From Candidatus Altimarinota bacterium (GTDB lineage Bacteria; Patescibacteriota; Gracilibacteria; BD1-5; UBA6164): a stretch of 64,000 nt of DNA. The position numbers and the translations under genes were made by a program. The stretch spans positions 214,443 to 278,442 of the forward strand of contig JAHDCR010000001.1 of NCBI GenBank assembly GCA_020629795.1. The letters are read 5' to 3'. Positions 8,087 to 55,544 of the stretch are shown here, in pieces (positions within the stretch are counted from its first letter, which is position 1; each line of letters starts with the position of its first letter). Under the pieces are notes generated by a model. It made no database searches, had not been told where the DNA came from, and saw only the letters and a list, made by a program, of their open reading frames with translations.

Positions 8087-8557
8087 ATGACAAACGTTGA
8101 TATAGTAAGAAAGGCTCAAAATGAGTTTCTTCAACAAGGAAGACCAGACATGAAAACTGGTATGGAAGTAGAAGTATACCAAATCATTAAAGAAAATGGA
8201 AAAGAAAGAGTACAAAGATTTAAAGGTATTATCATAAAAATTGCTGGAAAATCTGAACTCGAAAAAACAATTACAGTAAGAAGAAAAGTTGGAGCATTTG
8301 GTGTAGAAAAAATCTTCGCTGTACACTCTCCTACTATAGAAAAAATCGACGTACTAAGACAATTCAAGGTAAGAAGAAAATCTATTAAATTTATTAGAGA
8401 ACTTACAGGTAAAGCTGCAAGACTGAAAGAAATTAAAATGGATAAGGAAGTACTGAATTCTCCTAGAACTCTCCCTACATTTGAGGCACCTAAAGTTGAG
8501 ACTCCTAAAGCTCAAGAAGAAGCTCCAGTAGAAGAAACTAAGACTGAAGAAAAATAA
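8087..8557 (+). CDS. rplS: 50S ribosomal protein L19
   Basis: 156 residues. The L19 core is clear: GRPDMKTGMEVEVYQII, RVQRFKGIIIKIAG, TVRRKVGAFGVEKIFAVHSP and a KVRRKSIKFIREL stretch. The last 45 residues (after KAARLKEIK) are an extra acidic Pro/Glu tail not found in standard L19 (about 115 aa). Start chosen at ATG 8087 because the alternative at 8051 lies inside the promoter -10. No UGA codons among about eight glycines, in keeping with high expression. L19 sits at the 30S-50S bridge. Confidence 0.95.
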   Translation: MTNVDIVRKAQNEFLQQGRPDMKTGMEVEVYQIIKENGKERVQRFKGIIIKIAGKSELEKTITVRRKVGAFGVEKIFAVHSPTIEKIDVLRQFKVRRKSIKFIRELTGKAARLKEIKMDKEVLNSPRTLPTFEAPKVETPKAQEEAPVEETKTEEK

Positions 8558-10197: not shown

Positions 10198-11388
10198 ATG
10201 GTTTTTGATCCAGCAGCTTTTGAAAACTTAGAAGCATTACAAGCAAGAAATGACAGAGAGGCTGATGAGGCTCAAATAAATGCTAAATTAGCTGAAGACT
10301 GAATAGATTTAGAGTGAGCAAAGAATCTTATGTATTGAGATTTACAAGCGAGAACTCCTGAAGAGATTGAGGCAGCAAAAATCGCTGAAGCTAATGAACC
10401 AGATGCAGATGAAGAATTAATGGCTGCGTTAGAATGAGAAGAGGCTTGAGATAAAATACAATTAGAGCATTGAGAAGATACAATTGTTTGATCACAGTGA
10501 AATGACACTATAAAAAATGCAGAACAAGTAGAAATTGATGTTGAACAACAAAAAGCATTAAAAAATTGAATCTTTTCTCCAAGGATTGATAGTTTGGTAC
10601 TCCAATGAGAGCTATGAGATATAACATCTAAAGAAGTAAAAACACTTAAGACAACTCTACTAAGTGGTAATATTGAGGATATAGACAGTATTCCTGAATC
10701 AGAATTATCCAATGACATAAAATGAATAGTAATTGAAAAATTGAGTAAATCAGAAGATCCTGCAAATCAAATAGAATACTCTAAAAATTTCACTCAAGAT
10801 TTTGGAAGTGAACTCAAGGACTTTCAAAATGCTAAGTGAGAATTTAAATCTGACTTAGACCAATCAGCCTTTAAAATGATATCAGCGAGATATATCACCC
10901 CTCTTGAGTGAGAAGTATCAGTAGAAGATAAAAAAATTGCGTTAGACACTGCTTTCAATACAGCTCTTAATACAGAATTATATGGAAAACAAATCAACAG
11001 AGAAACAGAAAGCTTTAAACAAATCTGCAGAGACATAAGAAATGATACTCTCCCAATATGAAAAAAATTTTCTGCGTTCAAAGAACTCTTATCTTTTACG
11101 AGTTTAGAGCAATGAAAGTGATGAAAAAGGCAAGAAACATTGTATAGAAAAAGAGCTGCTGAACAAATGCTTACAGATTCGTGAAGATTAGAAAGATTCA
11201 ATGAGTTACTCGCTTTATTTAATAAACAAGATCAGTGATCAAATAGATCCATTGAAATTGCTCAGGAACTAGAAGCCATAAGGCTAGAATCCGGTGTTTC
11301 ATCTTGAGATGCTAGTTTACTAGCAGGGGGAGAGGCTATAGATATAGTAACAGATGACATATCAGAAAACACTCAAGAATCAGCTTAA
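10198..11388 (+). CDS. acidic hypothetical protein with a short RTX-like motif
   Basis: 396 residues, strongly acidic, predicted mostly helical, no signal peptide and no membrane segment. Residues about 92-105 read GEDTIVGSQGNDTI, resembling one and a half RTX nonapeptides. The same kind of motif appears in the unrelated-looking 932-residue protein at 60849-63647. The middle is Lys/Glu/Ser-rich with regular hydrophobic spacing, and the C-terminus is acidic (DIVTDDISENTQESA). Its TAA overlaps the stop of the convergent comEC by two bases. Many UGA-Gly codons. Function unknown. Confidence 0.75.
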
Positions 11389-16256: not shown

Positions 16257-18389
16257 CTATTCGTCTTCTGGAAGTTTGAAACCTCTTTCTTCACGAATTT
16301 TAGTAGCAACATTTGTAGGAACTTCTTCGTAATGATCGAATTCCATACCGTATGTAGCACGACCTTGAGAAGCTGATCTTAGCTCAGTAGAGTACCCAAA
16401 CATTTCTGAAAGTGGTACATAACATGAAATAATTTTAGCTTGCCCTCTATCACCCATTTCTTCAATTCTTCCTCTCTTAGAATTAATTTGACCGATAACA
16501 TCACCCATATATTCTTCTGGAGTATTTACCTCTACCTTCATGATAGGCTCTAGGATAACAGCTTGGGCTTTTCTACAAGCATCTTGGAAAGCTTTTGAAG
16601 CTGCAATTTTAAATGCAAGTTCTGATGAATCAACATCATGGAATGAACCAAATGTAAGAGTCGCTTTTACGTCTACCATTGGGTATCCAGCAGAGAAACC
16701 TCTTGCATATGCTTCATTAAGACCTTTTTGTACACCTGGAATATATTCTTTTGGTATAACACCACCTGTAATTTTATTTACAAATTTGTTTACAAGTTTA
16801 ATTCCGTTTTCATCATCTTCATCTGCCTCTTTGTATGGCTCAAAAGTGATTACTACATGACCATATTGACCACGACCACCTGTTTGTTTTGAGAACTTAT
16901 GTTCTACGTCAGTTGCAACTGTTTTTATAGTTTCTCTGTATGCAACTTGAGGAGCACCTACATTACATTCAACCTTAAACTCTCTTTTCATTCTATCAAC
17001 AATGATATCTAGGTGAAGCTCACCCATACCAGAGATAATAGTTTGAGCAGTTTCTTCATCTGTCCTAACTCTGAAAGAAGGATCTTCTTCCGCGAGTTTT
17101 CCAAGAGCAATACCCATTTTTTCTTGATCTGCTTTTGTTTTAGGTTCAACAGAAATTGAGATTACTGGTTCTGGGAATTCCATAGATTCAACAAGGAATT
17201 TTTTACTTACATCACAAAGTGTATCACCAGTTTTTGTAGCTTTTAAACCAATAACTGCACCAATATTACCAGCAGTAATTTCTGGTATTTCTTCTCTTGA
17301 GTTTGAGTGCATTTGAACAAGTCTCCCTACTCTTTCTTTTTGACCAGAAGTAGCGTTGTAAACATATGAACCTGATTTAAGAGTTCCTGAGTATACTCTT
17401 ACAAATGTAAGTCTCCCTACAAAAGGATCTGTAGCAACTTTAAATGCGAGAGCACCAAGAGGTGAAGCAGCATCTACTTTAATTTCTTCTGTTTTTTCAA
17501 TATCATCAACATCACTAACAGTCAGAATACCTTCATTTACATCCATAGGACTTGGAAGATAATCAACAGCAGCATCGATAACCATTTGAACCCCAATGTT
17601 TTGAAGAGCAGAACCACAAGCAACAGCATAAAGATTGTTAGAACAAACACCTTTTCTGAGACCTTGTTTAATTTCAGCTACACTAAGATCTCATTCAGAG
17701 AAATATTTATCCATAAGAGCATCGTCTTGTTCTGCTACTTTTTCAATAAGTTCAAGTCTCATTGCTTCAACTTTATCTTTAAGATCAGCAGGGATTTCGA
17801 TTTCTTTTACATTTTCACCAGAATCACCCTCAAAGTGATACGCTTTCATTTCAATTATATCAACTAATCCTGAAAAATCATCTGCAGCCCCGATTGGGTA
17901 TTGAATTGCTACTACTTTATTACCAGCAAGTCTTTTTTTAATAGTATCAACAGACATATCAAAATCACCCCCCATTTTATCCATTTTATTTACAAAACAG
18001 ATTCTAGGTACATTATACTTATCCGCTTGTTTCCAAACTGTTTCTGATTGAGGTTCAACCCCTTGAGAACCATCAAAAATGGCAACACCTCCGTCAAGTA
18101 CTCGAAGTGATCTCTCTACTTCAATAGTAAAATCAACATGGCCAGGAGTATCGATAATATTAATTTGATGACCTTTCCAGAATGCAGTAGTTGCTGCTGA
18201 AGTAATTGTAATACCTCTTTCTTGTTCTTGTTCCATCCAGTCCATAGTACCCTCACCATCGTGAGTTTCACCAATTTTGTGGATTTTCCCTGTATAGAAT
18301 AGAATTCTTTCTGATACAGTAGTTTTTCCGGCATCAATATGGGCAATAATACCTATATTTCTAACCTTATCTAAAGGAGTAACGCTCAT
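16257..18389 (-). CDS. fusA: elongation factor G
   Basis: 710 residues, full length. GTPase motifs: AHIDAGKTT (G1), DTPGHVDF (G3), NKMDK (G4). Domains II-V are intact, ending GFKLPEDE. Catalyses ribosome translocation and, with RRF, recycling. It contains exactly one in-frame UGA (17691-17693, in YFSEGDLS) in a protein with dozens of glycines; neighbours of similar length carry many. That single UGA would truncate EF-G under the standard code. Monocistronic with its own terminator. Confidence 0.97.
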
Positions 18390-28260: not shown

Positions 28261-28494
28261 ATGCCACAAATTGAAAAAAATCCAATAATTGAAAATAGTG
28301 ATATTATAGGAAAGAATCCTGAAACAGCATTATCAGCTTTAAAAAATAGAGAAGATTTAGTTCTAGCTGAAGCTGAAAAATTTTGAATTGGAGAAATACA
28401 ATGTACAGAGTTTAGTCATAGAAACGAAGAATCTGTTCGCGATTTTTTCAATAGTCAATTTTCAAATTTAGCTGATTTAGTAGTTCCAGAATAA
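28261..28494 (+). CDS. hypothetical protein, 77 aa
   Basis: Small acidic protein (MPQIEKNPIIENSDIIGKNP, ending FSNLADLVVPE). One UGA-Gly. Separated by 3 nt from genes on both sides, so clearly operonic. No family recognised. Confidence 0.65.
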
Positions 28495-33275: not shown

Positions 33276-33878
33276 ATGTGAACTCAATTTTGAACTCCTG
33301 ATGTATCCTGACTCCCTCTTTTTGATGCACTCAAAAAAAAAGAAGACAGAGAAAAGAGAAACTTACAAAATGAAAAAGACAGGGACAACGTTGAAATATG
33401 GTTAAATTGAGACTCTGAAGTGAATAATAAAACAAGCCAAATTTTACAAAGCGAGAGTAGCGAATGAATAACACAAGATATTGATTTTGGTTGAAAACTT
33501 TTAATATCTCAATATATAGAAAATAATCAAGATTTTTGAAGTGTTAAAGTTTTAAATGTGAAGCATCATGGGTTTTACAATATTGCCGTGATTGAAATTT
33601 CTCATCAATTTCTTCCTAAGAAATACATAGCGAAATGAAATAAATATAATCCAGTTTCTTGAAAATATAATTGAGAGCCAGTTTCTTACCCTAAAACTTC
33701 ACCTTGAAGAGTAGTGAAGAAAACTTATAGAATTCAGTATACTCCCTGAAAAGAATGAGAGGGTAATTATTGAATATATTGTTATTGAGGAAAGATAAAG
33801 GATTGAAAACGTGTTGAACTAAATGAAAGTATGATTATACCAATATTAAAAGAAATAGAATCACTTGCAGAATCTTAA
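33276..33878 (+). CDS. hypothetical protein, 200 aa
   Basis: Starts ATG-UGA, so Gly is the second residue. Charged, low-complexity N-terminal half (KKKEDREKRNLQNEKDRDN) and a C-terminal globular part with aromatic strands (FYNIAVIEISHQFLPKKYI, GNYGIYCYGGKIKDGKRVEL). About 15 UGA-Gly codons in 200 residues, among the densest in the window. Followed by a strong terminator. No family recognised. Confidence 0.7.
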
Positions 33879-33922: not shown

Positions 33923-36763
33923 ATGTCAAAATTTCTTGAAGTTCGCGGTGCGAGAACTCATAATCTGAAAAATGTGGATGTAAAAATCCCAAAAAATACT
34001 CTCACGGTTATAACCTGACTTTCAGGGTCTGGAAAATCATCACTCGCATTTTCGACAATTTACTCTATAGGACAACAAAAATACCTAGAGAGTCTTTCGA
34101 GTTATGCACGTATGTTCGTTGGGTCAGGTAAAGACGAAGCACTCTATGATGAAATTACGGGGCTTTCTCCAACTATTTCAATTGACCAAAAGACGACGAA
34201 TAGAAATCCTAGATCAACGGTAGGAACCATAACAGAAATTTATGATTATTATAAACTCCTTTATCTCAATATTTGAGAGAGACGATGTATAGATTGTGAT
34301 AGTATCATAAAAAAGGATTCAACAAGAGATATAATAGAATACATTTCAAGCTTTCCAGAAGGTACGAAGTATTTTTTAAGCTGCCCTTTTCTTAAAAACA
34401 AGACAGATATTAGCCCAGAACTAATTAAAAAACATGTACTTGATGCAGGTTTTATCAGGTTTATGGTAAATGGAACAGAGTACAATGTAAATACTGATTT
34501 TGAGTTAGTAGACGAAAATGTGAGAGTAGAAATAATTGTAGACAGACTGGTAGTCAAGGATATTTCTGATCCAGAAAGTTCAGATTTAAAACGTCTGAAA
34601 GATAGTATTTCAGTTGCGTATAAAAATGGTGATGGACAGATGTTTGTTACTATGATGTGAGATACAAATGAGACCAGAAGTTTTTCAGAGGTGTTTGTTT
34701 GTAGTAATTGCTGACATGTTCCTGAGAAGCTTAGCATATCTTCTTTTTCATTTAACTCACACCACGGAGCCTGTCCAGATTGTCATGGACTTTGAGAAAA
34801 AATGGTTTTTTTAGAGGAAAAAATTACCAATCCAAATTTAACTCTTTTGGAGTGAGCTATACTTCCCCCATGATTTGGAAATTATTTCCTAGCGCTTATA
34901 CAAGAAGTTTCTAAAAAACATTCTATTCGATTAGATGTACCTTACTCAGAGCTCACAGAGAAAGAGAGAAAAATTATAATGCATGGAACATGAAAGACGA
35001 CATATACTGTCTCTTTTGTGAATGAAAGTGGACGAAAAAACACATATAATTCCAAGTTTGAATGAGCTATAACTACCCTGACACGTAGATACTATGACTG
35101 ATGAGTAGAGAGCGGTCACTATGATGATTATATCACAAATATTGCTTGTCCAGATTGTGATGGATATAGACTATGAAAAGAATCATTAAGTGTATTTTTA
35201 AATGGACTTCATATTGGACAGTTGTGAAACATGAACATAACTGCTTCTCAAGAGTATTTTAGAAACCTATCACTCTACTCAGAGCAACAAAAAGTAGCAG
35301 AAAAAGTAATGAAAAACATTACAGAAAGATTAGAGTTTCTAGAGTGAGTTGGACTATCATATATGACGCTTTCTAGAAAGGCTAATACGCTCTCAGGATG
35401 AGAAGCTCAGAGAATAAGGCTTGCAACTCAGATAGGTGTAAAGTTAGAATGAATAATATATGTACTTGATGAGCCATCAATAGGTTTACATCCTCGGGAT
35501 AATGATATGCTCATTGCAAATCTAAAAAAACTTCGAGATGTGTGAAACACTCTTATAGTTGTGGAACATGATGAAGACATTATGCGTGAAAGTGATCATA
35601 TTATAGACATTTGACCTTGAGCATGAATACATGGATGAGAGGTTATTGCCCAGGGGACATTTGAAGAGATCTGTAAGAATAAAAACTCAGTAACTTGACC
35701 TTACTTAAGTTGAGCAAAAACAGTAATACTTGAAAAAGAAAAACGTAAAAAAGATTCAATGCTCTCTATTATTTGAGCGACACATCATAATCTTCAAAAT
35801 ATCGATGTCCACTTCCCTATATGAAATCTTTCAGTGGTAACTTGAGTTTCAGGATCAGGTAAGTCTTCACTCGTAAATGATATACTCGCTACTTCACTCG
35901 CAAATACTCTTAATCGGGCAAGTAAAACTGTTTGAGCACACAAAGAGATTACTGGAACTGAAAACTTTGATAAAGTGCTTGTGATAGATCAATCTCCAAT
36001 TTGAAAAACTCCTCGCTCAAATCCAGCTACTTATACATGAGTGTTTACTTTTATAAGAGAAGTGTTTGCTCAGAGTTATGATGCTAAGCTCAGAGGGTAT
36101 GCTCCTGGTAGATTTTCTTTTAATACGAGAGAGTGAAGATGTCCAGAGTGTGATGGTGATGGTGTAAAGAAAATTGAAATGCATTTCTTGCCACCAGTAT
36201 ATACAACTTGTGAATCATGTGATGGAAAGAGATTTAATCCTGAAACTTTAGAAATAAAATACAAGGGAAAAACAATTGCAGATATACTTGCTATGACAGT
36301 TGAAGAAGCAAGGGAGTTCTTTCATGCACACCCTCGTATAATGAAAATTATGGACATACTCGACAAGGTGTGATTATGATATATTTGACTCTGACAAGCA
36401 TCTACTACGCTATCTTGATGAGAAGCGCAAAGAATCAAATTAGCCAGCGAATTATCAAAACGATCTAGCTCAAAAACAATTTATATACTTGATGAGCCAA
36501 CTACTTGATTACACTTTCAAGATATTGAAAAACTTCTTCACATTCTTCACTCACTTGTTGATAAATGAAATACAGTAATAGTAATTGAGCATAATATGAA
36601 TATGATTCTCAATGCTGATCATATTATAGACATATGACCAGAATGATGAGATATGTGAGGTACTATGTTAGTTTCTGGATCAGTTGAAGATGTTAAGAAC
36701 TGCAAGGAGAGTTATACTGGACAAGCAATTGAGAAATATCTTGAGCACTTTAAAAAGCAATAG
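33923..36763 (+). CDS. uvrA: excinuclease ABC subunit A
   Basis: 946 residues, full length. Two ABC modules with Walker A ([20 protein letters not shown]), two LSGGEAQRI(R/K)LA signatures and [10 protein letters not shown] / ILDEPTTGLH Walker B. Zn-finger Cys pairs are present (CSNC...CPDC, CPEC...CESC, and CIDC early). Dimeric damage sensor that loads UvrB; works with Mfd, also in the window. The second Gly of the first signature (35399-35401) is UGA. Followed after 2 nt by murB. Confidence 0.97.
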
Positions 36764-37950: not shown

Positions 37951-38648
37951 GACTTCAAAAATATATGAGCCAAGCAGGTATTTGCTCGCGTAGAAAAGCA
38001 GAAGAATACATTGCTGCTGGTCAAGTATTTATAAATGGACAAAAAGCTACGATAGGACAGTCTGTTAATCCTGAAAGTGATATAGTTACGCTCTGAAAAT
38101 GAGCAGAAATGTCTCGACAGGATTTTGTCTATTATAAGTACAATAAACCTAGAGGTGTTGAGACTACTTGTGCTCAAAGGTGATGACAGTCTATAATTGA
38201 CGTGATTAATGTCCCAGAGAGAGTTTTTCCGGTATGACGCTTAGATATGGATTCTACTTGACTCATAATGCTAACAAATGATGGAAGGATGACAAATTAT
38301 CTTACTCATCCAAAATATGAACATGAAAAAGAGTATGTAGTAGAAACTTTTGGTCCAATATCTGACAAGCAGCTGTCTACTATGAGTCAATGAGTTGAAA
38401 TCCTATGAAAAATTACGAAAAAATGTAAGGTAGAGAGACTTGCAGCGTGAAAGTTTTCAATAGTTCTTACAGAGTGAAAAAATAGACAAATCAGGAGGAT
38501 GGTTGAAGAAGTCTGATCTAAGGTAAAAAAACTTAAGAGGGTACGTATTCAAACACTGCTGCTTGAAAAATTAAAAGAATGAGATATAAAAAAATTAGGA
38601 AAACAAGAAAAAGATACATTATTTAAAAGTATAGGACTTTCAAACTAG
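37938..38648 (+). CDS. RsuA/RluB-family rRNA pseudouridine synthase
   Basis: 236 residues. S4 domain at the N-terminus (VRLQKYMSQAGICSRRKAEEYI), catalytic GRLDMDSTGLIMLTNDG (Asp nucleophile), and LTEGKNRQIRRM. Isomerises a uridine in rRNA (16S or 23S). Gly of GRLD and STGL are UGA. The TAG stop shares the CTAG palindrome with the stop of the convergent gene. RluB is the closest type by length; target not decidable. Confidence 0.92.
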
Positions 38649-39325
38649 AGAGTCCTTATTTTTTTGAATTCATTTCTAATAGCTGAAATAACATCTTTTA
38701 GATATTGATTCATCTCGGAGTGTGAAGTAAACTCATAGTTAGAAAATTTTTTCATTTTCATATTTTGTTCTCTGAGAACTACGAGACTTTCTACTAGTTT
38801 TTTTTCTTTTGTAGATAAGTTGTTTTTTGTAATCAGCTGGTTGCTCACTGATAGCAATAAATCATCAAGAGTATCTGATATTTGCTTTCAAATTCATGAT
38901 AGTACTTGTTGTTTTTGTCTTACTGAGTCGAGATATATTATTTTTTCCTGTTCTAAAAAGACCTTCATCCGAGTGTTAATAATCTTTAAATCTGAGACTA
39001 TTTTAGACATTATTTTACTGGATGTTTTAGTGTCGTATTTATTTTTTTGAATATCGATCAGACTTGCCTGCATATTTCATGTTTGAAAGTTGAAGTTTGA
39101 CATAGCTACTGAGTTTGGTCATTCATATGTGTTGTGAAGTTGATTTATTTTGTTTCTGTAAGTCTCTATATAATTTTGTAATAATTTAGCTGCAGAGAGT
39201 TGTGATTCTGTAATATCTCAATTTTGAGCTGAATTAACAAAGTCCTCTTGGTAATTTAATGCCAAAACTGGATTTGCGCTCATAGATATTGCACATATGA
39301 TAATGTATAAGAGTCAAAGCTTCAT
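38645..39325 (-). CDS. secreted coiled-coil protein, unknown
   Basis: 226 residues. Signal peptide (about 1-22, ending SANPVLA), then a helical, Gln/Lys/Asn-rich region predicted to form coiled coils. No Cys after the signal region and no lipobox. Possibly a periplasmic or surface structural protein. Converges on the pseudouridine synthase with overlapping stops. Confidence 0.75.
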
Positions 39326-44318: not shown

Positions 44319-45590
44319 ATGGATTACAACTCAACATTAGAAGAACTGAAGACACTAGTCTACAAATGAGATAATATACAGAAAATCTGTGATATGATTA
44401 TTTTGGCGGCAGTTCTTTGAGATGCATCAGATATACATGTTGAACCACTGAGTTCTTTTGTGAGGCTACGTTATAGAATTGATGGAGAATTGAGTGAAAT
44501 ACTTGAGTATCAATCATTTCTTCACTCTGGTATTATTGCGAGATTTAAAATTCTTTCAGAGCTCAAGATTGATGAATCAAGGGTTCCTCAAGATGGACGT
44601 ATAAGTCAGACCATTTTAAATAAGCCACTTGATCTACGTGTCTCGACACTTCCAACCGTTCATGGAGAAAAGATTGTTATGCGTATCGTGGACAAAAGTA
44701 AAAAGATTCCTGAGCTATGAAAATTAGGTATAGAGTGAAAAAATAAAGTACTATTAGAAAAGGCTATTGGACTACCTAATGGGGTAATTTTGACAAGTGG
44801 ACCTACCGGTTCTGGTAAATCTACTACGCTCTACTCAATCCTCACTATGCTCAATGACCCGGATGTGAATATTATGACGCTTGAAGATCCTGTCGAAAAC
44901 CAAGTAGACGGTATTAGTCAGAGTCAGGTAAAGCCGTGAATCTGATATACCTTTGCTTATGGACTGAGAACTGCTTTGAGACAAGATCCGGACATCATTA
45001 TGGTGTGAGAGATGCGTGATAAGGAAACTGTTGATATTGCTATTGAAGCATCTTTGACATGACATTTGGTATTGTCGACAATACATACAAACAATGCAGC
45101 AGAAACCATTACCAGAATATTAAACATGTGAGTACAGCCATTTCTTATCCCAGCTTCACTCAATATAATAATTGCCCAAAGACTTGTGAAACGTGTTTGT
45201 GATGATTGTAAACAGGTGATGCCACTGAGTGAGATAGACAAAATTACACTTCAAAATATTAAACATGCCTTGTCTGTAACTCCAAAAGAAGAGCTTTTAT
45301 CTCGAGTTGGAGCTGATAAGATGAAATCTCCAGTATTTTATAGGGCTGTAGGTTGTGATACCTGTGGATGAAACGGATATAAGTGACGAGTTGGTATGTA
45401 TGAAATGCTAGAAATAAGCCCATGAGTTAAAGATATGATCCTTAGATGAGACTCTGCATTCAATATTAATAGACAAGCCATAAAAGATGGAATGATATCT
45501 CTAGAGCAAGATGGTATCATCAAAGCGCTTCAATGACAGACAACACTTGAAGAAGTATACAGAGTGTCTAAAACACAAAATGAAGAATAA
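44319..45590 (+). CDS. pilB: type IV pilus assembly ATPase PilB/GspE
   Basis: 423 residues, shorter than typical PilB (about 560) because the N1E domain is missing. N2E/CTE motifs are intact: ASDIHVEP, RLRYRIDGEL, Walker A SGPTGSGKSTT, Asp box and Walker B LRQDPDIIMVGEMRD, His box SLTGHLVLSTIHTN. Zn-binding tetracysteine (CDDC ... CDTCGGNG). Powers pilus extension or pseudopilus-based DNA uptake. No PilT retraction ATPase is nearby. GEMRD and TGHL glycines are UGA. Confidence 0.95.
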
Positions 45591-47137: not shown

Positions 47138-50100
47138 ATGAGTACTTTTGTTAAAAAAGCTACTTCTGCTGTTGCTGGTCTTGCTGTAGTGTTTTCTATG
47201 GTATCACCAATAGCTGGAGTTTCTGCTGCACTCTCTGGAGTGGAAGCAGCAAATCAGCTTGCTACTCTTGGAGTAGTTGTAGACCAATCTGCTAATCCTG
47301 CTGATTACAGACTTGGAGACAATCTTCCTAGAAAAGAAGCTGTTAAAGTAATGATGAATCTTTCATCTGTTGCTGTTGTTGATAACTGTTCAGGTCAATT
47401 TTCTGACCTAACTTCTGCTGATTGGGCATGTAAATATGCTGAAACTGCATTAGCTAACGGTCTTGTTGCTGCTAACGCATCATTCAGACCAGATGACCTT
47501 GTGTCAAAAATCGAAGCTCTTAAGATGGTATTCCAAGGAATGGATCTAGAAAGAGATGATAACGCTGACTGGAGAGCTGGTTACGTAGAAGCTGCTGTTT
47601 CTATGGGAATCGCTACTTCATTCTCAGACTACGATACTCCTGCTACTAGAGCTGAAATGTTTGTATGGGCTGCTGAAGCTATCAACATGGATGACGAAGT
47701 TGCTACAGAAGATCCACTATGTGACCTTCTAGGTATCTGTGAAGAAGAAGGTACTGATGAAGGTACTGAAGAAGCTGAAGGTGAAACAGAAACTCCTGTA
47801 GTTCCTGCTGGATCTTCTCTTCAAGTAAGTCTTTCTCCTAGCACTCCTGCTTCTACTACTATTCCTGGTGGAGTAAATGGTCTTGCAGTTGTTGCTTACG
47901 ACTTTACTGCTGGTTCTTCTGATGTTACTGTAAGTCAAGTTTCTGTTAAAAGAACAGGTCTTTCAGATGAAGATACATTAGAAAATCTCGCTATATTTAC
48001 TATGGCTGGTAGAGTTTCTAACGCTAAATCAGATAACCAAGACAACGATACTACTGCTCAAATCAATCTTGATAACGGTGGAATCGTAATTGAAGCTGGT
48101 GAAACAGAAACACTTATGGTTGTTGTAGATGTTGCTCCTGTCTTATTGGCAGAAAGTGATGAATTTGCTCTTGAAATAGTTGACGTAGTTGCTAACTCAG
48201 AGGTTTCTGGTCTTGGTGCTAGAGGTGCTACTATGAGAGTAGGTTCTGTAAATGCTCCATCATTAGAATTCACAGTTGGAGGTTCAGTTTCTAATCCAAA
48301 TCTTGGAGAAGTTGCTGCTGATATCTTTGAATTTGAAATTGAAAATGATTCAGACGAAGATGTAGAACTTATTTCTGTAACTTTTGAAGGATCTTCAGAT
48401 GCTGAAGATGATCTAATGAACTTTGAACTTGTAATGGGTAATAAAGTAGTAGCTACTACTTCTATGATGTCAGGTGACTACCTTACATTTAACCTTGGAG
48501 GACTTCTTATAGAAGAAGATAGAACAGAAGATTTCACTGTAAGAGCTGACGTTGTAGACGGAGCTGGAGATAAAATCTCATTTAATATCGATGAAAAACT
48601 CGACGTTACTGCTAACTCTACTAAGTTTGATTTCGGTGCTTCAGTAGATATTTCTACTGTTACTGGATCAGGAAACTTTGGTGAAATTACTATCGAAGCA
48701 GGTGAATTAACTTTCGTTGAAGTTGATGCTGAAAACGATGAAATTAGAGAAGATAAAGATAATGTAATACTTGGTGGTGTAAAAATCACTAACATATCTG
48801 GACAACAACTAGAAATGGAATCATTTGGAGTTGAAATTGAGATAGATAACGGAGGTACAGCTAATCTTACTGGATCTGCTACTGGTTCTCTTACAGTAAT
48901 TGAACTGTTTGATGACGTAGAGCTTTATAACGAAGAAACAGGTTCTTCATACGAACTAAGAGCTGGTACTGTTACTACTTCAGGTGATGTTACTTCTGCT
49001 GTTTACTCTGATAACAATATTGATGTAATTCTTCCAGAAGGAACTACTTCATGGTCTATTAGAGCTGATACTGCTGAGGATATTGATAACTTCGCTGATG
49101 TATCTATCGACCTTACAGTTGATGTTGCTAACGACGTTGTAGTTGTTGAAACTGCTGACGACGAAGAAGTTACTGATAAAACACCTTCTACTCTTTCTTT
49201 CAATACTATTGATGGATCTGAGTCAGGTGCACAAATCTCACTTATTCCACTTTCTGACACTGATGTTGTTAGAGGTGCTGATGATGTAGTTGCTCTTCAA
49301 TTCGAAGTAGAAGCTGAAGAAGTTTCTGAAATTATTGTTGATGAAATTACTGTACAGATTGATGCTAATGGATCAGCTGCTACGAATCAACAAATTTCTG
49401 AAGTAAAACTTTTCAAAGGTTCTGTTTCTGATGCTAACCTTCTCGATAGAGAATCAGGTTCTGATATCGGAACAGGAGGTGATGTAACATTTGATAGAAT
49501 GGAAGATGTTATTATTGCTGCTAATGGTGAAACTGAATTTGTTGTTACTGTTTCATTTGTTGATGGTGTTGATGCTGTTAACGGATCAGACTATACTGTA
49601 AGTGTTACTGATATTAGTATTGATGATGATGAAAATGACGAAGTTGATGTTTCTGCATCTCTTCCACTTGCTTCTGCAAGACAACTTACTGTTAATGAAG
49701 CGGGGCTTATCGTAACTGTTAACCTTGATGCTGCTAACGAAGATAATGAATTTGATAAACTAGCTCTTGCTGGTGATTCAGCTATCATTGCTTCATTTGA
49801 TGTAAGAGCTGATAATGAAGAGATTGATGTAGAAACTGCTACATTTACTATCGCTGGTTTTGCTGGTGTTGGAGCATTGAGAGATACTGTTACTTCTGCT
49901 ACAATCCTATTAAACGGAGTTGCAATTGAAACAAACTCTAACTCTGATATCACAGATACTACGATTACTTTTGAAAATCTTGACGGCCTTATTATACCAG
50001 AACAAACTGCAGAGCTTGCTCTACAATTCAACACTGCTAATATCGGTGATGATGAAACTGGTGAAAACCTTACAGGTTTATCTGTTACTCAATTAGTTCT

Positions 50101-50602
50101 TTCTGATGCTGAAGGTGTTGAATCAGGTAAAGATACAGCTGACGGTGATTCAGGAGTTGTTGTAAGTAGAACTATGGATATAGTTGCTGCTGTAGTTACT
50201 CCATCTGTTGTTAGTACTTTTGGTACTGATGATCAAACTGCTGAGCTAAGACTCGTAGTTGATGGTGGAAATAATACTAATGTTGCTGGTGATGCTGTAC
50301 AAGCTGAGCTAGAAGTTCTTACTCTTGTAGTATCTTCTGGTACAGCTGCTGATGGAGACATTACTGTATTTAACGGTAACGGTGTTTCAATCGGTACAAA
50401 TGTTGGTTCAGTTATCACTGTTACTGCTGATTCAATCGGTAATGACAACGAAATATATAGAATAGAAGTTGCTAGTGCAGCAGAAGCTATATATAGACTT
50501 GCTACTAACGGTGTAACTTACGATATTAATAACGCTGGAACACCTGTTTCTACTAAACTTGAAAATACTCTTGATCTTGGACAATACGCTAATTCTAACT
50601 AG
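47138..50602 (+). CDS. large SLH-domain surface (S-layer-like) protein
   Basis: 1154 residues. Signal peptide (1 to about 30, ending GVSAA). SLH-like repeats at about 35-190 (NLPRKEAVKVMMNL, FRPDDLVSKIEALKMVF, ATRAEMFVWAAEAI). An acidic Glu/Thr linker (about 195-225) leads into a long run of beta-rich Ig-like repeats, very acidic and rich in Val, Thr, Ser, Asp. Probably the main cell-surface layer or a giant adhesin. Remarkably it contains no UGA codon at all despite several dozen glycines, all GGN, and regular GCT/GTT/TCT codons, consistent with very high expression. No sortase motif or C-terminal membrane segment. Confidence 0.88.
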   Translation: MSTFVKKATSAVAGLAVVFSMVSPIAGVSAALSGVEAANQLATLGVVVDQSANPADYRLGDNLPRKEAVKVMMNLSSVAVVDNCSGQFSDLTSADWACKYAETALANGLVAANASFRPDDLVSKIEALKMVFQGMDLERDDNADWRAGYVEAAVSMGIATSFSDYDTPATRAEMFVWAAEAINMDDEVATEDPLCDLLGICEEEGTDEGTEEAEGETETPVVPAGSSLQVSLSPSTPASTTIPGGVNGLAVVAYDFTAGSSDVTVSQVSVKRTGLSDEDTLENLAIFTMAGRVSNAKSDNQDNDTTAQINLDNGGIVIEAGETETLMVVVDVAPVLLAESDEFALEIVDVVANSEVSGLGARGATMRVGSVNAPSLEFTVGGSVSNPNLGEVAADIFEFEIENDSDEDVELISVTFEGSSDAEDDLMNFELVMGNKVVATTSMMSGDYLTFNLGGLLIEEDRTEDFTVRADVVDGAGDKISFNIDEKLDVTANSTKFDFGASVDISTVTGSGNFGEITIEAGELTFVEVDAENDEIREDKDNVILGGVKITNISGQQLEMESFGVEIEIDNGGTANLTGSATGSLTVIELFDDVELYNEETGSSYELRAGTVTTSGDVTSAVYSDNNIDVILPEGTTSWSIRADTAEDIDNFADVSIDLTVDVANDVVVVETADDEEVTDKTPSTLSFNTIDGSESGAQISLIPLSDTDVVRGADDVVALQFEVEAEEVSEIIVDEITVQIDANGSAATNQQISEVKLFKGSVSDANLLDRESGSDIGTGGDVTFDRMEDVIIAANGETEFVVTVSFVDGVDAVNGSDYTVSVTDISIDDDENDEVDVSASLPLASARQLTVNEAGLIVTVNLDAANEDNEFDKLALAGDSAIIASFDVRADNEEIDVETATFTIAGFAGVGALRDTVTSATILLNGVAIETNSNSDITDTTITFENLDGLIIPEQTAELALQFNTANIGDDETGENLTGLSVTQLVLSDAEGVESGKDTADGDSGVVVSRTMDIVAAVVTPSVVSTFGTDDQTAELRLVVDGGNNTNVAGDAVQAELEVLTLVVSSGTAADGDITVFNGNGVSIGTNVGSVITVTADSIGNDNEIYRIEVASAAEAIYRLATNGVTYDINNAGTPVSTKLENTLDLGQYANSN

Positions 50603-51377: not shown

Positions 51378-51839
51378 TTAGTCTATCACTTCTACGATAG
51401 TAAACTCTCCATATTGAGTTGGAAGTTTTTCACCTACTTCAAGTTTTATTCCTGCTGCTGTAAAGCTGGCTAGATCTTTTTTAGGAATTGTTTGCATTTT
51501 TGAGTCATCTCTTTCTCCATAGGCATCTTTTGGTTCTAGAGTCAGTACTTTTGCTTCTCACTCTTGCATTCCTACTACACCTTTATCAAACCCTGGAATC
51601 ATTTGCCCAGCTCCTACAGTAAATGGAAGAGTTTCACCTCTATCTCGTGAGCTATCAAATTTTTCACCATTTTCAAGAGTTCCAGTATAGTGTACCTCTA
51701 TAGCATCACCATTTTCTACTGTTTTAGCATCTGTTCCACTACCTTTTTTTATTTTAACTACTTCCATATCAAATATGAGAGTTTTTCATGCAAGAGCATG
51801 ATTTACGTCTATTACAACGCTTCCTGTTAGTTCAGCCAT
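51378..51839 (-). CDS. FKBP-type peptidyl-prolyl isomerase
   Basis: 153 residues. Short N-terminal beta segment (GSVVIDVNHALAGKTLIFD) then an FKBP domain: GDAIEVHYTGTLENGEKFDS, LPFTVGAGQMIPGFDKGVVG, AYGERDDS. No signal peptide, so probably cytosolic. It shares this unusual N-terminal segment with the lipoprotein FKBP encoded just upstream, which suggests a tandem duplication. Catalyses proline isomerisation. Confidence 0.9.
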
Positions 51840-51864: not shown

Positions 51865-52461
51865 TTAGTCTTGTAGTTCAACGATAGTAGCATCTCCTCC
51901 AGCTGTTGGAATAACTGCTCCAACACCGATTTCAAACTCTGGACCTACAAATTCTCTGAGTTCTGCGATAGTTACTGATTCTCTAATAGTGGCTGGACCG
52001 TATGCTTCTTCAGGAGCTAATACGAGAGTTTTTTCTTCACCAAGTTTCATTCCTACTACACCAGCATCAAATCATGTAATCATTTGACCAATACCTACAG
52101 TAAATGGAAGTGTTTGTTCTCTAGTATACGAGCTATCAAACTCTTCTCCATCATCAAGAGTACCTACATAGTTTACTTCTATGTCATCATTTACTTCTAC
52201 AGTATCTTCTTGAGTATTTCCTTCTGCTTTAGTTATTTTTTCGATTTTTACATCAAAATTGAGTGTTTCACCAGCAAGTGGAGATGGATTTTGGAGTTCG
52301 AGTACGACGCTACCAGTTTCATCACTGAGGGCTTCATTATTTGTTTCTTCAACAGCAGTATCGTTATTAACTTCTGTTGGCTGAGTATCAGCTCCAGGAG
52401 TACAGCTCACAAGCGCTGCAAGAGCTAAGAGGCAAAGAATATTAAGTGTATATTTCATCAT
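51865..52461 (-). CDS. FKBP-type isomerase lipoprotein
   Basis: 198 residues from ATG 52461. Lipoprotein signal (LCLLALAALVSC, Cys about 19), an acidic Thr/Asn/Glu linker (about 22-50), a segment like that of the cytosolic paralogue (VVLELQNPSPLAGETLNFDV), then an FKBP domain (IEVNYVGTLDDGEEFDS, LPFTVGIGQMITGFDAGVVG). Likely folds extracytoplasmic proteins. UGA encodes the Gly in MITGFD. Starts 21 nt after the mfd stop. Confidence 0.9.
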
Positions 52462-52481: not shown

Positions 52482-55400
52482 TTATTTTCTTACTAACTTT
52501 ATTTTTGGATTTCATATCTTTCCAGCAAAAAGCCGCAAGACATATTTTATGAATATTCCATCGTTTGCAAAACCTTTTACGGGTGTTCTTATACGATGTG
52601 CATCTGTAACTGCAAATTTTACTTCACTGTCAAGCTTCAGGAAGTTTTTAAGTACCTCTATATCAGCTCTCGGATCAAATGTGATTTGATAGTTTACTCA
52701 GATTCTTTTGATACTGTTAATGAGATGCTTTTGGCAATAAATCTGACACTCTAGCAGCTCAAATAAATGTTGCGTTTGTTCAGGGATTTCACTATTTTTA
52801 CTGTTTTCAAAGAAGCTTTCTTTGAGGTAGTCTAGATCTTCTTTGTTTTGTATTAGCTCTATCTCTCTGTAAAAGTTGAGTTTGTCAGTTTCTGAGAGAA
52901 AATATTCATCTGGAACTCCAGCTGATATCATGAGATCTATTTTTGTATCTACCTGAATAAGTTTCTTTGCAGTAGATTTTGTTGTTTGAGTTTCTTGCTC
53001 TAATTTTTGCTGCTTTAGATCTGATATTTTTTCCTCTAGCATTTTCAAAAAGAGAGATACTCAAATTTCTTTTGCCTGTCCACTTTGTCTGATACCAAGT
53101 ATATCTCATCCTCAACGAATTTCTAAGTCTTTCATCGCGAGTTCAAACCCAGCTCAAAGATAACTATAGTCTACTATGGTCTGTATTCTCTTTGCAGCTT
53201 CTCCATCTAATTGTTCTCGCTTATAGAGAAGATAACAGTATCACTGTTTGTCACTTCTTCAGACTCTTCATCTAAGTTGATGAATCTGTGATATACCAAA
53301 TTGTTGACACTCATTTATAAAAATTGTATTTACGTTAGAGAAATCAATTCCATTTTCAATAACAGTAGTAGAGAGGAGTATGTCATATTTCTTGTGTTTA
53401 AAGTCGAGAATTCTATTTTCAAGCTCTTCACCAGGGAGTTGTCCATGGGTGATAATGACTTTTTTCTTTGGAAATAGGGATTCAAGTTTTTTACGCATGA
53501 CTTCTATAGTTGCCACTCTATTATGGACAAAAAATATTTGACCATTCCTTTCAAATTCACGTTTTCCAGCATCCTGTATAAGTTTTTCATTAAAGCGAAG
53601 GACAGATGTCTCAATTGATTTTCTTCCTCCTGGAGGAGTCTTGAGTAGTGAGATACTTCTCACTCATGAAAGGGCTAAGTTTAAACTTCGAGGTATTGGG
53701 GTAGCGCTGAGAGAGAGTATATCGATATCAGACTTTATGTTTTTAATCTTTTCTTTATCTGCTACTCAAAACTTGTGCTCTTCGTCTACTATCATGAGTC
53801 AGAGTCTTTTACAAATCAGTTTGTCAGAGAGGAGTCTATGTGTTCCAACTACCATATCAACAGATCCATCTGCGAGTCACTTGAGTACGCGAGTCGCATG
53901 TTTTTGACTTTGTAGTCTTGTGAGTACTTCTATGTTGTAGGGGAGTTCCAGAAACCTCTCGATAGTTTTATCATAGTGTTCATGAGCGAGTACTACGAGT
54001 GGAGAAATAAATAATACTTGTTTATTATTAGATAGCGCTGCAAAAGCCGCGTTGAATGCTACTTCTGTTTTTCAAAAACCTACATCACCTACCAGGAGTC
54101 TGTCCATGTTTTTGTCGCTTTTCATGTCTTCAAATATTTCATGAATGGCTGCGTCTTGGTCTGGAGTATAGCTGTAAGGAAACTCTGATTGAAATTTTTC
54201 AAGCTTACCACTGTCTATAATGCTCGCATTTCAAACTCTGAGTTTTCTCTCTGCAAAGTTTTGGAGTATTCACTCTGCAATTTCTCTAATGTCTTCATGA
54301 ACCTTTTGGATTTTTCGTTCCCAAACTTTTCCAGAGAGTGGAGTGAGGCTTGGATTTTCACTTCAAATATATTTTGAAACTCTATGAACCTCAGTTATTG
54401 GAACAAAGAGCTTATCATTTTCCTTGTAAGAAATTTCTAGGTATTCCTTTTCTATATTGCCAAGTTTTTTCTTTATAATCCCTTCAAATACTCATATTCC
54501 ATGATCAATATGGACAATGTAGTCACCATTTTGTATCTTGAGTAATAGGTCTATTTCTGCAGATAAATTTTTCTTAGCTCGTCTTTTTATAAATATTTTT
54601 TGAAGTATATCGTCACATATATAAACATATGTATTTTTTTTCTCACTGTAGCTAAAACTTGTTAATAGGTGAGTTCCTACTTCTACGAGCTCTATATGTC
54701 AAAAATTATTATCCTTGAGAAATTCTTTAAGTGTTTTTCCATGCCTGGTAAATATTTTCGATATGTTTGATTTATTTCCGAGAATATCTTTTAAATCCTC
54801 TATGTTTTCAATGAAAGGTTTTTTTATTCATAGATTTATAGATTTTACTCCCTCCTCCATATTTGAGAGTATATTGATACTTGTCCATGAAATAGGTGAA
54901 GAGATAAGTGTCTCATAGAGATGATGAAATTGTAGAGAATCTAAAACGCAGTGAAGTCAGGCTTGCTCAATTATTTCTAAAAGTGTTATATTGTTTTTAA
55001 CATCTGGTGTAAATTCTCATATACTTGACAGTTTAACATTGTCATATACTTGTCAGTCAGAGTCACTTATACTTTCTATTTCATCTCACCAATAGCTGAG
55101 AGTCAGGGATTCTCCATTTGGATAATAAATATGTATACTATCTCATGATCTCATATAACTCCCAGGCTTTTTGTATTCGTGAAATTCATATCCGATATTT
55201 TGAAGTGATTTCATAAGTTCTTGCATGTCAAAATCGATACCAGTTTCTATATGTATTTGCTCCTTTACTAAGCTTTTAGATACTTCTTGGGTGATATGGT
55301 CTACTACTAGCACATAGATTCCATATCAATTATTTTCTAAAGTTTTTATGTCATGGAGACTCTCAAGCTTAAAATACGGAATCGTAAATTCATCAGCTAT

Positions 55401-55544
55401 TTTTTTGTATTTTTTGTATTCACTTTCTCCGGAAATTATATGTATAAAACCTCAAGAGTTTTGCAAGGTAGTATGTAAAAGCATACATTTTGAAAAATAC
55501 TCTCAACCGTGTGAGTAGTGATGATGTTTTTTGAGAATTTGCAT
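52482..55544 (-). CDS. mfd: transcription-repair coupling factor
   Basis: 1020 residues. UvrB-like N-terminal half (degenerate), RNA-polymerase-interaction domain ([17 protein letters not shown]), translocase motifs [69 protein letters not shown] and QLRGRVGRS, and a C-terminal D7-like domain. Removes stalled RNA polymerase and recruits UvrA, which is also in the window. Ends overlapping nothing; the FKBP lipoprotein follows. Confidence 0.95.

Follow-up and report, generated by a model that had tools for sequence, protein, structure and literature searches.

Abundant proteins of this Candidatus Altimarinota bacterium avoid UGA, a reassigned stop codon that is the commonest glycine codon in its ordinary genes (41%). 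The share of UGA among glycine codons is graded with expression proxies, both gene class and codon adaptation, as translational selection predicts. We regard the avoidance as established and as general across the order. Translational selection against UGA-Gly that grows with expression is the probable explanation, and its likely cause is inefficient decoding by tRNA-Gly(UCA).

Genome, sample and genetic code

The window, by which we mean the whole 64-kb stretch of DNA analysed, lies inside a 1.108-Mb assembly of 22 contigs that is 95% complete. Wider counts were made on 455 kb including the window, about 41% of the genome, taken as 20 stretches and one short locus. Genes were called with a scoring scheme blind to glycine codons, and ribosomal and related genes were named through homology to E. 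coli. Gene identity or class and codon adaptation served as expression proxies, with an adaptation index that excludes glycine. Relatives were represented by 24 genomes of the order, 23 of them in the EF-Tu comparison; owing to their mutual kinship they are not independent samples.

The host genome reads UGA as glycine. In-frame UGA is present at glycine positions of conserved proteins, some species having UGA where others have GGN, and there is one tRNA-Gly(UCA) gene. The 95% complete assembly holds one RF-1-domain gene, with an RF1-type motif; no RF2 was found in it, and that sole RF-1-domain gene carries no SPF motif. Code 25, in which UGA means glycine, is established for Gracilibacteria and Absconditabacteria (PMC4032931, PMC8629427). 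The published code-25 genomes have in common with the host the in-frame UGA at glycine sites, the tRNA-Gly(UCA) and the lack of a detected RF2.

UGA in the genes of the window

The contrast between genes of the window is large (Table 1). The three genes for the S-layer homology (SLH) protein, EF-G and L19 use UGA at 1 of 165 glycines, compared with 507 of 1080 in the remaining called genes of the window (Fisher p = 1e-39). The SLH gene alone gives p = 2e-25, and p = 8e-16 when only UGA and GGA are compared. Its glycines are encoded by GGU (58), GGA (35), GGC (1) and GGG (1), and its adaptation index ranks 4th among 363 sampled genes. These counts bear out an earlier note, which had described several dozen glycines without UGA in the SLH protein, about eight in L19, a single UGA in EF-G, about 15 in the unknown protein at 33276, and many in uvrA, mfd and pilB (here the T2SSE gene). 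We notice that another gene of the window (38645-39325) has UGA at 6 of its 6 glycines.

Table 1. Genes discussed in the text, with UGA codons over all glycine codons. Positions are those of the window unless stated otherwise.
Feature	Position	Strand	UGA/Gly	Remarks
SLH-domain surface protein	47138..50602	+	0/95	1154 aa; PF00395, 8.8e-08
EF-G (fusA)	16257..18389	-	1/62
Ribosomal protein L19 (rplS)	8087..8557	+	0/8	PF01245
FKBP-type prolyl isomerase	51378..51839	-	2/18	PF00254
Exported FKBP-type prolyl isomerase	51865..52461	-	1/18	PF00254
Unknown function	33276..33878	+	16/20	contrast gene; 80%; without Pfam match
uvrA	33923..36763	+	42/82	contrast gene
mfd	52482..55544	-	28/67	contrast gene
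T2SSE (PilB/PilT-like ATPase)	44319..45590	+	14/33	contrast gene
Unknown function	10198..11388	+	21/27	contrast gene; 78%; without Pfam match
tRNA-Gly(UCA)	contig 13 (C13), about 28328-28406, outside the window; 1501-1579 of locus L181	complement (on L181)		one copy in the host genome; GCG...CGCU-CCA

Expression gradient within the genome

The earlier note had named a general UGA rate in ribosomal proteins as the outcome that would speak against its proposal; in the 455-kb sample, ribosomal proteins do not share that rate. UGA occupies 36 of 408 glycines (8.8%) in 36 ribosomal proteins and 2 of 122 in EF-Tu, EF-G and EF-Ts (EF-Tu alone, 1 of 41), as against 3119 of 7622 in all other called genes (p = 6e-66). 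Low UGA is also found in the genes for trigger factor, an S1-domain protein and BipA, and in the two FKBP genes.

Non-ribosomal genes ranked by the glycine-free adaptation index follow the same trend. The highest octile has a UGA share of 13% and the one below it 34%; the middle octiles have about 44-51% and the bottom one 43%, so that the negative relation to codon-adaptation rank anticipated by the earlier note is observed in this sample. In one quasi-binomial model that also contains gene length, the index (z = -11), GC content (z = -10) and homology (z = -5.8) each contribute. The pattern is replicated in the same-genus genome G044, with 21% UGA in the top octile and 45-53% in the others. 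Genes without homologs in the sampled relatives carry more UGA at an equal adaptation index.

Conservation of the avoidance across the order

The background share of UGA in the 24 genomes runs from 7% to over 70% and tracks GC content (rho -0.90), as expected if mutation sets the background. Ribosomal proteins, with elongation factors included in one count, lie below this background in 24 of 24 genomes. In the comparison of 23 genomes, ribosomal proteins have less UGA than other genes in all 23 (Wilcoxon 2e-7), and EF-Tu has less than ribosomal proteins in 22 (Wilcoxon 4e-5), the remaining genome being tied at zero. The ribosomal-protein depletion is not significant in G015, G022 and G010 (p = 0.09-0.22).

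Two genomes show a weak effect in ribosomal proteins, namely G001 (31% UGA against a background of 41%) and G030 (49% against 56%), yet their EF-Tu genes have no UGA at all (0/42 and 0/40). This argues that the selective threshold lies higher in these two genomes and is not lost. Within one genus, ribosomal proteins have 31% UGA in G001 and 9-13% in the host genome G000, G044 and G034, although the backgrounds are similar; such a several-fold difference between sister species suggests that the threshold evolves fast.

SLH homologs avoid UGA as well, with 0 of 85 glycines in G034, 1 of 79 in G056 and 11 of 97 in G009, where the backgrounds are 38%, 66% and 77%, respectively. We also compared four genomes of one genus at 169 invariant glycine sites in 15 ribosomal proteins. 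Codons have been reshuffled at these sites, UGA is low in three of the four genomes, and only 3 sites have UGA in all four. Since species of one genus differ so widely in the codons of invariant glycines, each lineage must actively keep UGA low. As a cross-genome predictor of UGA avoidance, Sharp-type S, a measure of general codon-selection strength, proved weak (rho -0.36, p = 0.08).

Alternative explanations

We considered whether accuracy is what selection protects. UGA might sometimes be misread, as Trp by tRNA-Trp(CCA) or through other near-cognates, and faulty protein would cost more the more a gene is expressed. In a proteomic study of a related BD1-5 population, 97 peptides are unique to UGA-Gly and 3 to UGA-Trp (PMC4032931). 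Ordinary genes have UGA at 38.0% of conserved glycines versus 43.1% otherwise (MH OR 0.84, z -1.9), and genes with homologs carry less UGA at an equal adaptation index (z -5.8). Against this, the site effect is tiny compared with the effect of expression, and in ribosomal proteins and elongation factors UGA stands at 6.7% of conserved and 8.2% of variable glycines (MH OR 0.93). Both kinds of site avoid UGA equally, which leaves site-specific accuracy unsupported as the main driver, and we consider the accuracy explanation unlikely.

Premature termination or ribosome drop-off at UGA through residual release-factor action would also scale in cost with expression, and UGA is a former stop codon. 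However, the single release factor of the genome has RF1 features and lacks the SPF motif, which makes competition with RF2 unlikely. Further, genes show no trend in UGA share from start to end, with 45.1% in their first decile and 47.5% in their last (p = 0.27), the share does not depend on how long a gene is (rho -0.08, p = 0.26), and a U following UGA is not avoided relative to GGA (17.6% and 17.2%). The flat profile and the length test led us to rule out a processivity or termination cost, and we hold this explanation to be very unlikely.

Could UGA drop only because GGU rises? GGU is indeed raised in the ribosomal proteins of 24 of 24 genomes, and many other codons shift in the host genome. 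The lowered ratio of UGA to GGA in abundant host genes (OR 0.15, p = 9e-33) already refutes GGU preference as the whole story. UGA is lowered relative to GGG too (OR 0.13), and across the order it falls relative to GGA and GGG in the ribosomal proteins of 22 of 24 genomes (pooled lnOR -0.91 +/- 0.05). Among codons with a large family share, UGA is the most strongly depleted. G030 strongly prefers GGU, AGA and CAA, and its ribosomal-protein ratio of UGA to GGR is not lowered. Plain GGU optimisation is thus extremely improbable.

The chance is very small, in our judgement, that genes poor in UGA simply have a higher GC content, came lately from code-11 donors or kept old GGN codons through conservation: the UGA share does fall with GC within the genome (rho -0.43) and, as noted above, between genomes, but the adaptation-index effect persists after GC, which contributes, is accounted for (partial r -0.39), while the reshuffling at invariant sites rules out inertia of conserved genes that never gained UGA, and conserved glycines of ordinary genes reach 38% UGA. 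As for the SLH gene, its codon usage is that of native highly expressed genes and same-family homologs avoid UGA too, so we rejected its recent acquisition from a code-11 source.

With termination, drop-off and site accuracy disfavoured, a cost per decoding event is left over.

The tRNA that decodes UGA

tRNA-Gly(UCA) has the acceptor pairs G1:C72, C2:G71 and G3:C70, followed by U73. Its anticodon arm (UAAGG-CUUCAAC-CCUUG) forms a 5-pair stem with U-G at the outer end. By pattern search, one gene was found in each of 50 of 59 genomes, with a nearly invariant sequence; an extra match in G025 is not a tRNA. The D-loop GG is absent from all 20 distinct tRNA-Gly(UCA) sequences and present in 201 of 202 other tRNAs. 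Its loss should weaken the usual elbow contact between D-loop and T-loop. Against a general tRNA model the gene scores 44.5 bits, under all 26 tRNAs listed for the host genome.

In the complete relative G030 nearly all tRNA genes are single-copy, so copy number does not mark out tRNA-Gly(UCA). The only glycine tRNAs of G030 are tRNA-Gly(UCC) and tRNA-Gly(UCA); tRNA-Gly(GCC) was found neither there nor, by pattern, in family f1. Two single-copy tRNAs therefore carry all glycine in G030, and judging from the gene sets, the four GGN codons all seem to be served by tRNA-Gly(UCC) in G030 and f1. GGU is favoured in abundant proteins there although no tRNA-Gly(GCC) was found. The pattern for tRNA-Gly(UCC), which is present in most relatives, had no match in the host assembly, probably because of an assembly gap.

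UGA and UGG (Trp) form a wobble pair of codons, like AUA and AUG (Met), and among the common codons of these genomes AUA comes second to UGA in depletion. A potential ambiguity at U34 is pointed out in an earlier paper (PMC8629427). In ordinary genes of the 24 genomes, UGA-UGA pairs show a deficit at distance 1 (z -6.6) and distance 2 (z -3.9), and none at distances 3 and 4. These two distances correspond to the span of the ribosomal A, P and E sites. In the all-codon control, a similar deficit is shown by CUU at distance 2 and, at distance 1, by AUA (strongly) and other codons. As other codons share parts of the pattern, we downgraded pair avoidance from proof of tRNA exhaustion to a suggestive observation.

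A proposed model for the cost of UGA

Taken together, we propose that AT-biased mutation largely determines how much UGA most genes contain, one G-to-T change being all that turns GGA into UGA, and this would make UGA the commonest glycine codon. In heavily translated genes, each UGA would be so costly that selection eliminates new mutations to it. The cost probably lies in inefficient decoding by the single tRNA-Gly(UCA) with its unusual body, lacking the D-loop GG. This tRNA may stay scarce or restrained because its U34 has to recognise UGA and leave the neighbouring UGG alone. The odd D-loop, the wobble conflict with UGG, the parallel with AUA and the deficit of close UGA pairs all hint at slow or scarce decoding. 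Of the two parts of the earlier note's proposal, the purging of UGA from abundant proteins by selection is strongly supported, being graded, order-wide and kept despite codon turnover; a slow codon or a scarce tRNA as the cost is a plausible reading of the tRNA and codon patterns.

More speculatively, a built-in wobble conflict might keep tRNA-Gly(UCA) weak, by a D-arm without the elbow GG, by low dosage or by both, so that UGA would remain slow long after reassignment. tRNA-Gly(UCA) would have to spare UGG as the AUA-reading tRNA-Ile must spare AUG. We offer this extension as a doubtful but possible one.

Comparison with known systems

Abundant bacterial proteins classically use a restricted codon set under translational selection, and avoidance of AUA is a familiar case. 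The host conforms in restricting the codons of its abundant proteins, and differs in that the codon it strongly avoids is a reassigned stop that outnumbers every other member of its family.

In Blastocrithidia, in-frame reassigned stop codons are avoided in highly expressed genes (PMC12153298). Both systems show depletion in ribosomal proteins (the cytosolic ones in Blastocrithidia) and a negative correlation with an adaptation index. In Blastocrithidia, reassigned-codon use is also negatively correlated with protein abundance, whereas the host gradient rests on expression proxies. Blastocrithidia is a eukaryote, whereas the host is a bacterium with UGA as glycine, a dedicated tRNA-Gly(UCA), no RF2 found and UGA as the commonest codon of its family. 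The 4-bp anticodon stem of the Blastocrithidia type is absent in the host, where the stem has 5 pairs and the amino acid is glycine, not tryptophan.

The consulted portions of the code-25 papers (PMC4032931, PMC8629427) contain no statement on expression-dependent UGA avoidance, and in the open-licence literature we found no report of UGA avoidance in highly expressed genes of UGA-Gly bacteria. A phage paper suggests that heavy use of UGA may entail high expression of the alternative-code tRNAs (PMC10746230); our reading of a weak or scarce tRNA-Gly(UCA) runs opposite to that suggestion.

Biological meaning

Codon reassignments are often seen as complete as soon as a new tRNA has arisen and the release factor has disappeared. 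The gradient in the host and in 24 related genomes indicates that a codon reassigned long ago is still costly: selection still strips UGA from abundant proteins in one species after another and in step with inferred demand, and this in a clade where UGA can hold the majority within its codon family. What a genetic-code change continues to cost can thus be measured from sequence alone. The analysis singles out one unusual tRNA as the likely cause and speaks against a plentiful alternative-code tRNA. If the wobble-conflict reading is true, UGA content would govern how much protein is translated throughout a bacterial clade, and close UGAs would be costly because two such tRNAs share one ribosome. 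For uncultured Gracilibacteria, the UGA share offers a practical predictor of expression, and the finding bears on why phages without in-frame UGA could thrive in these hosts.
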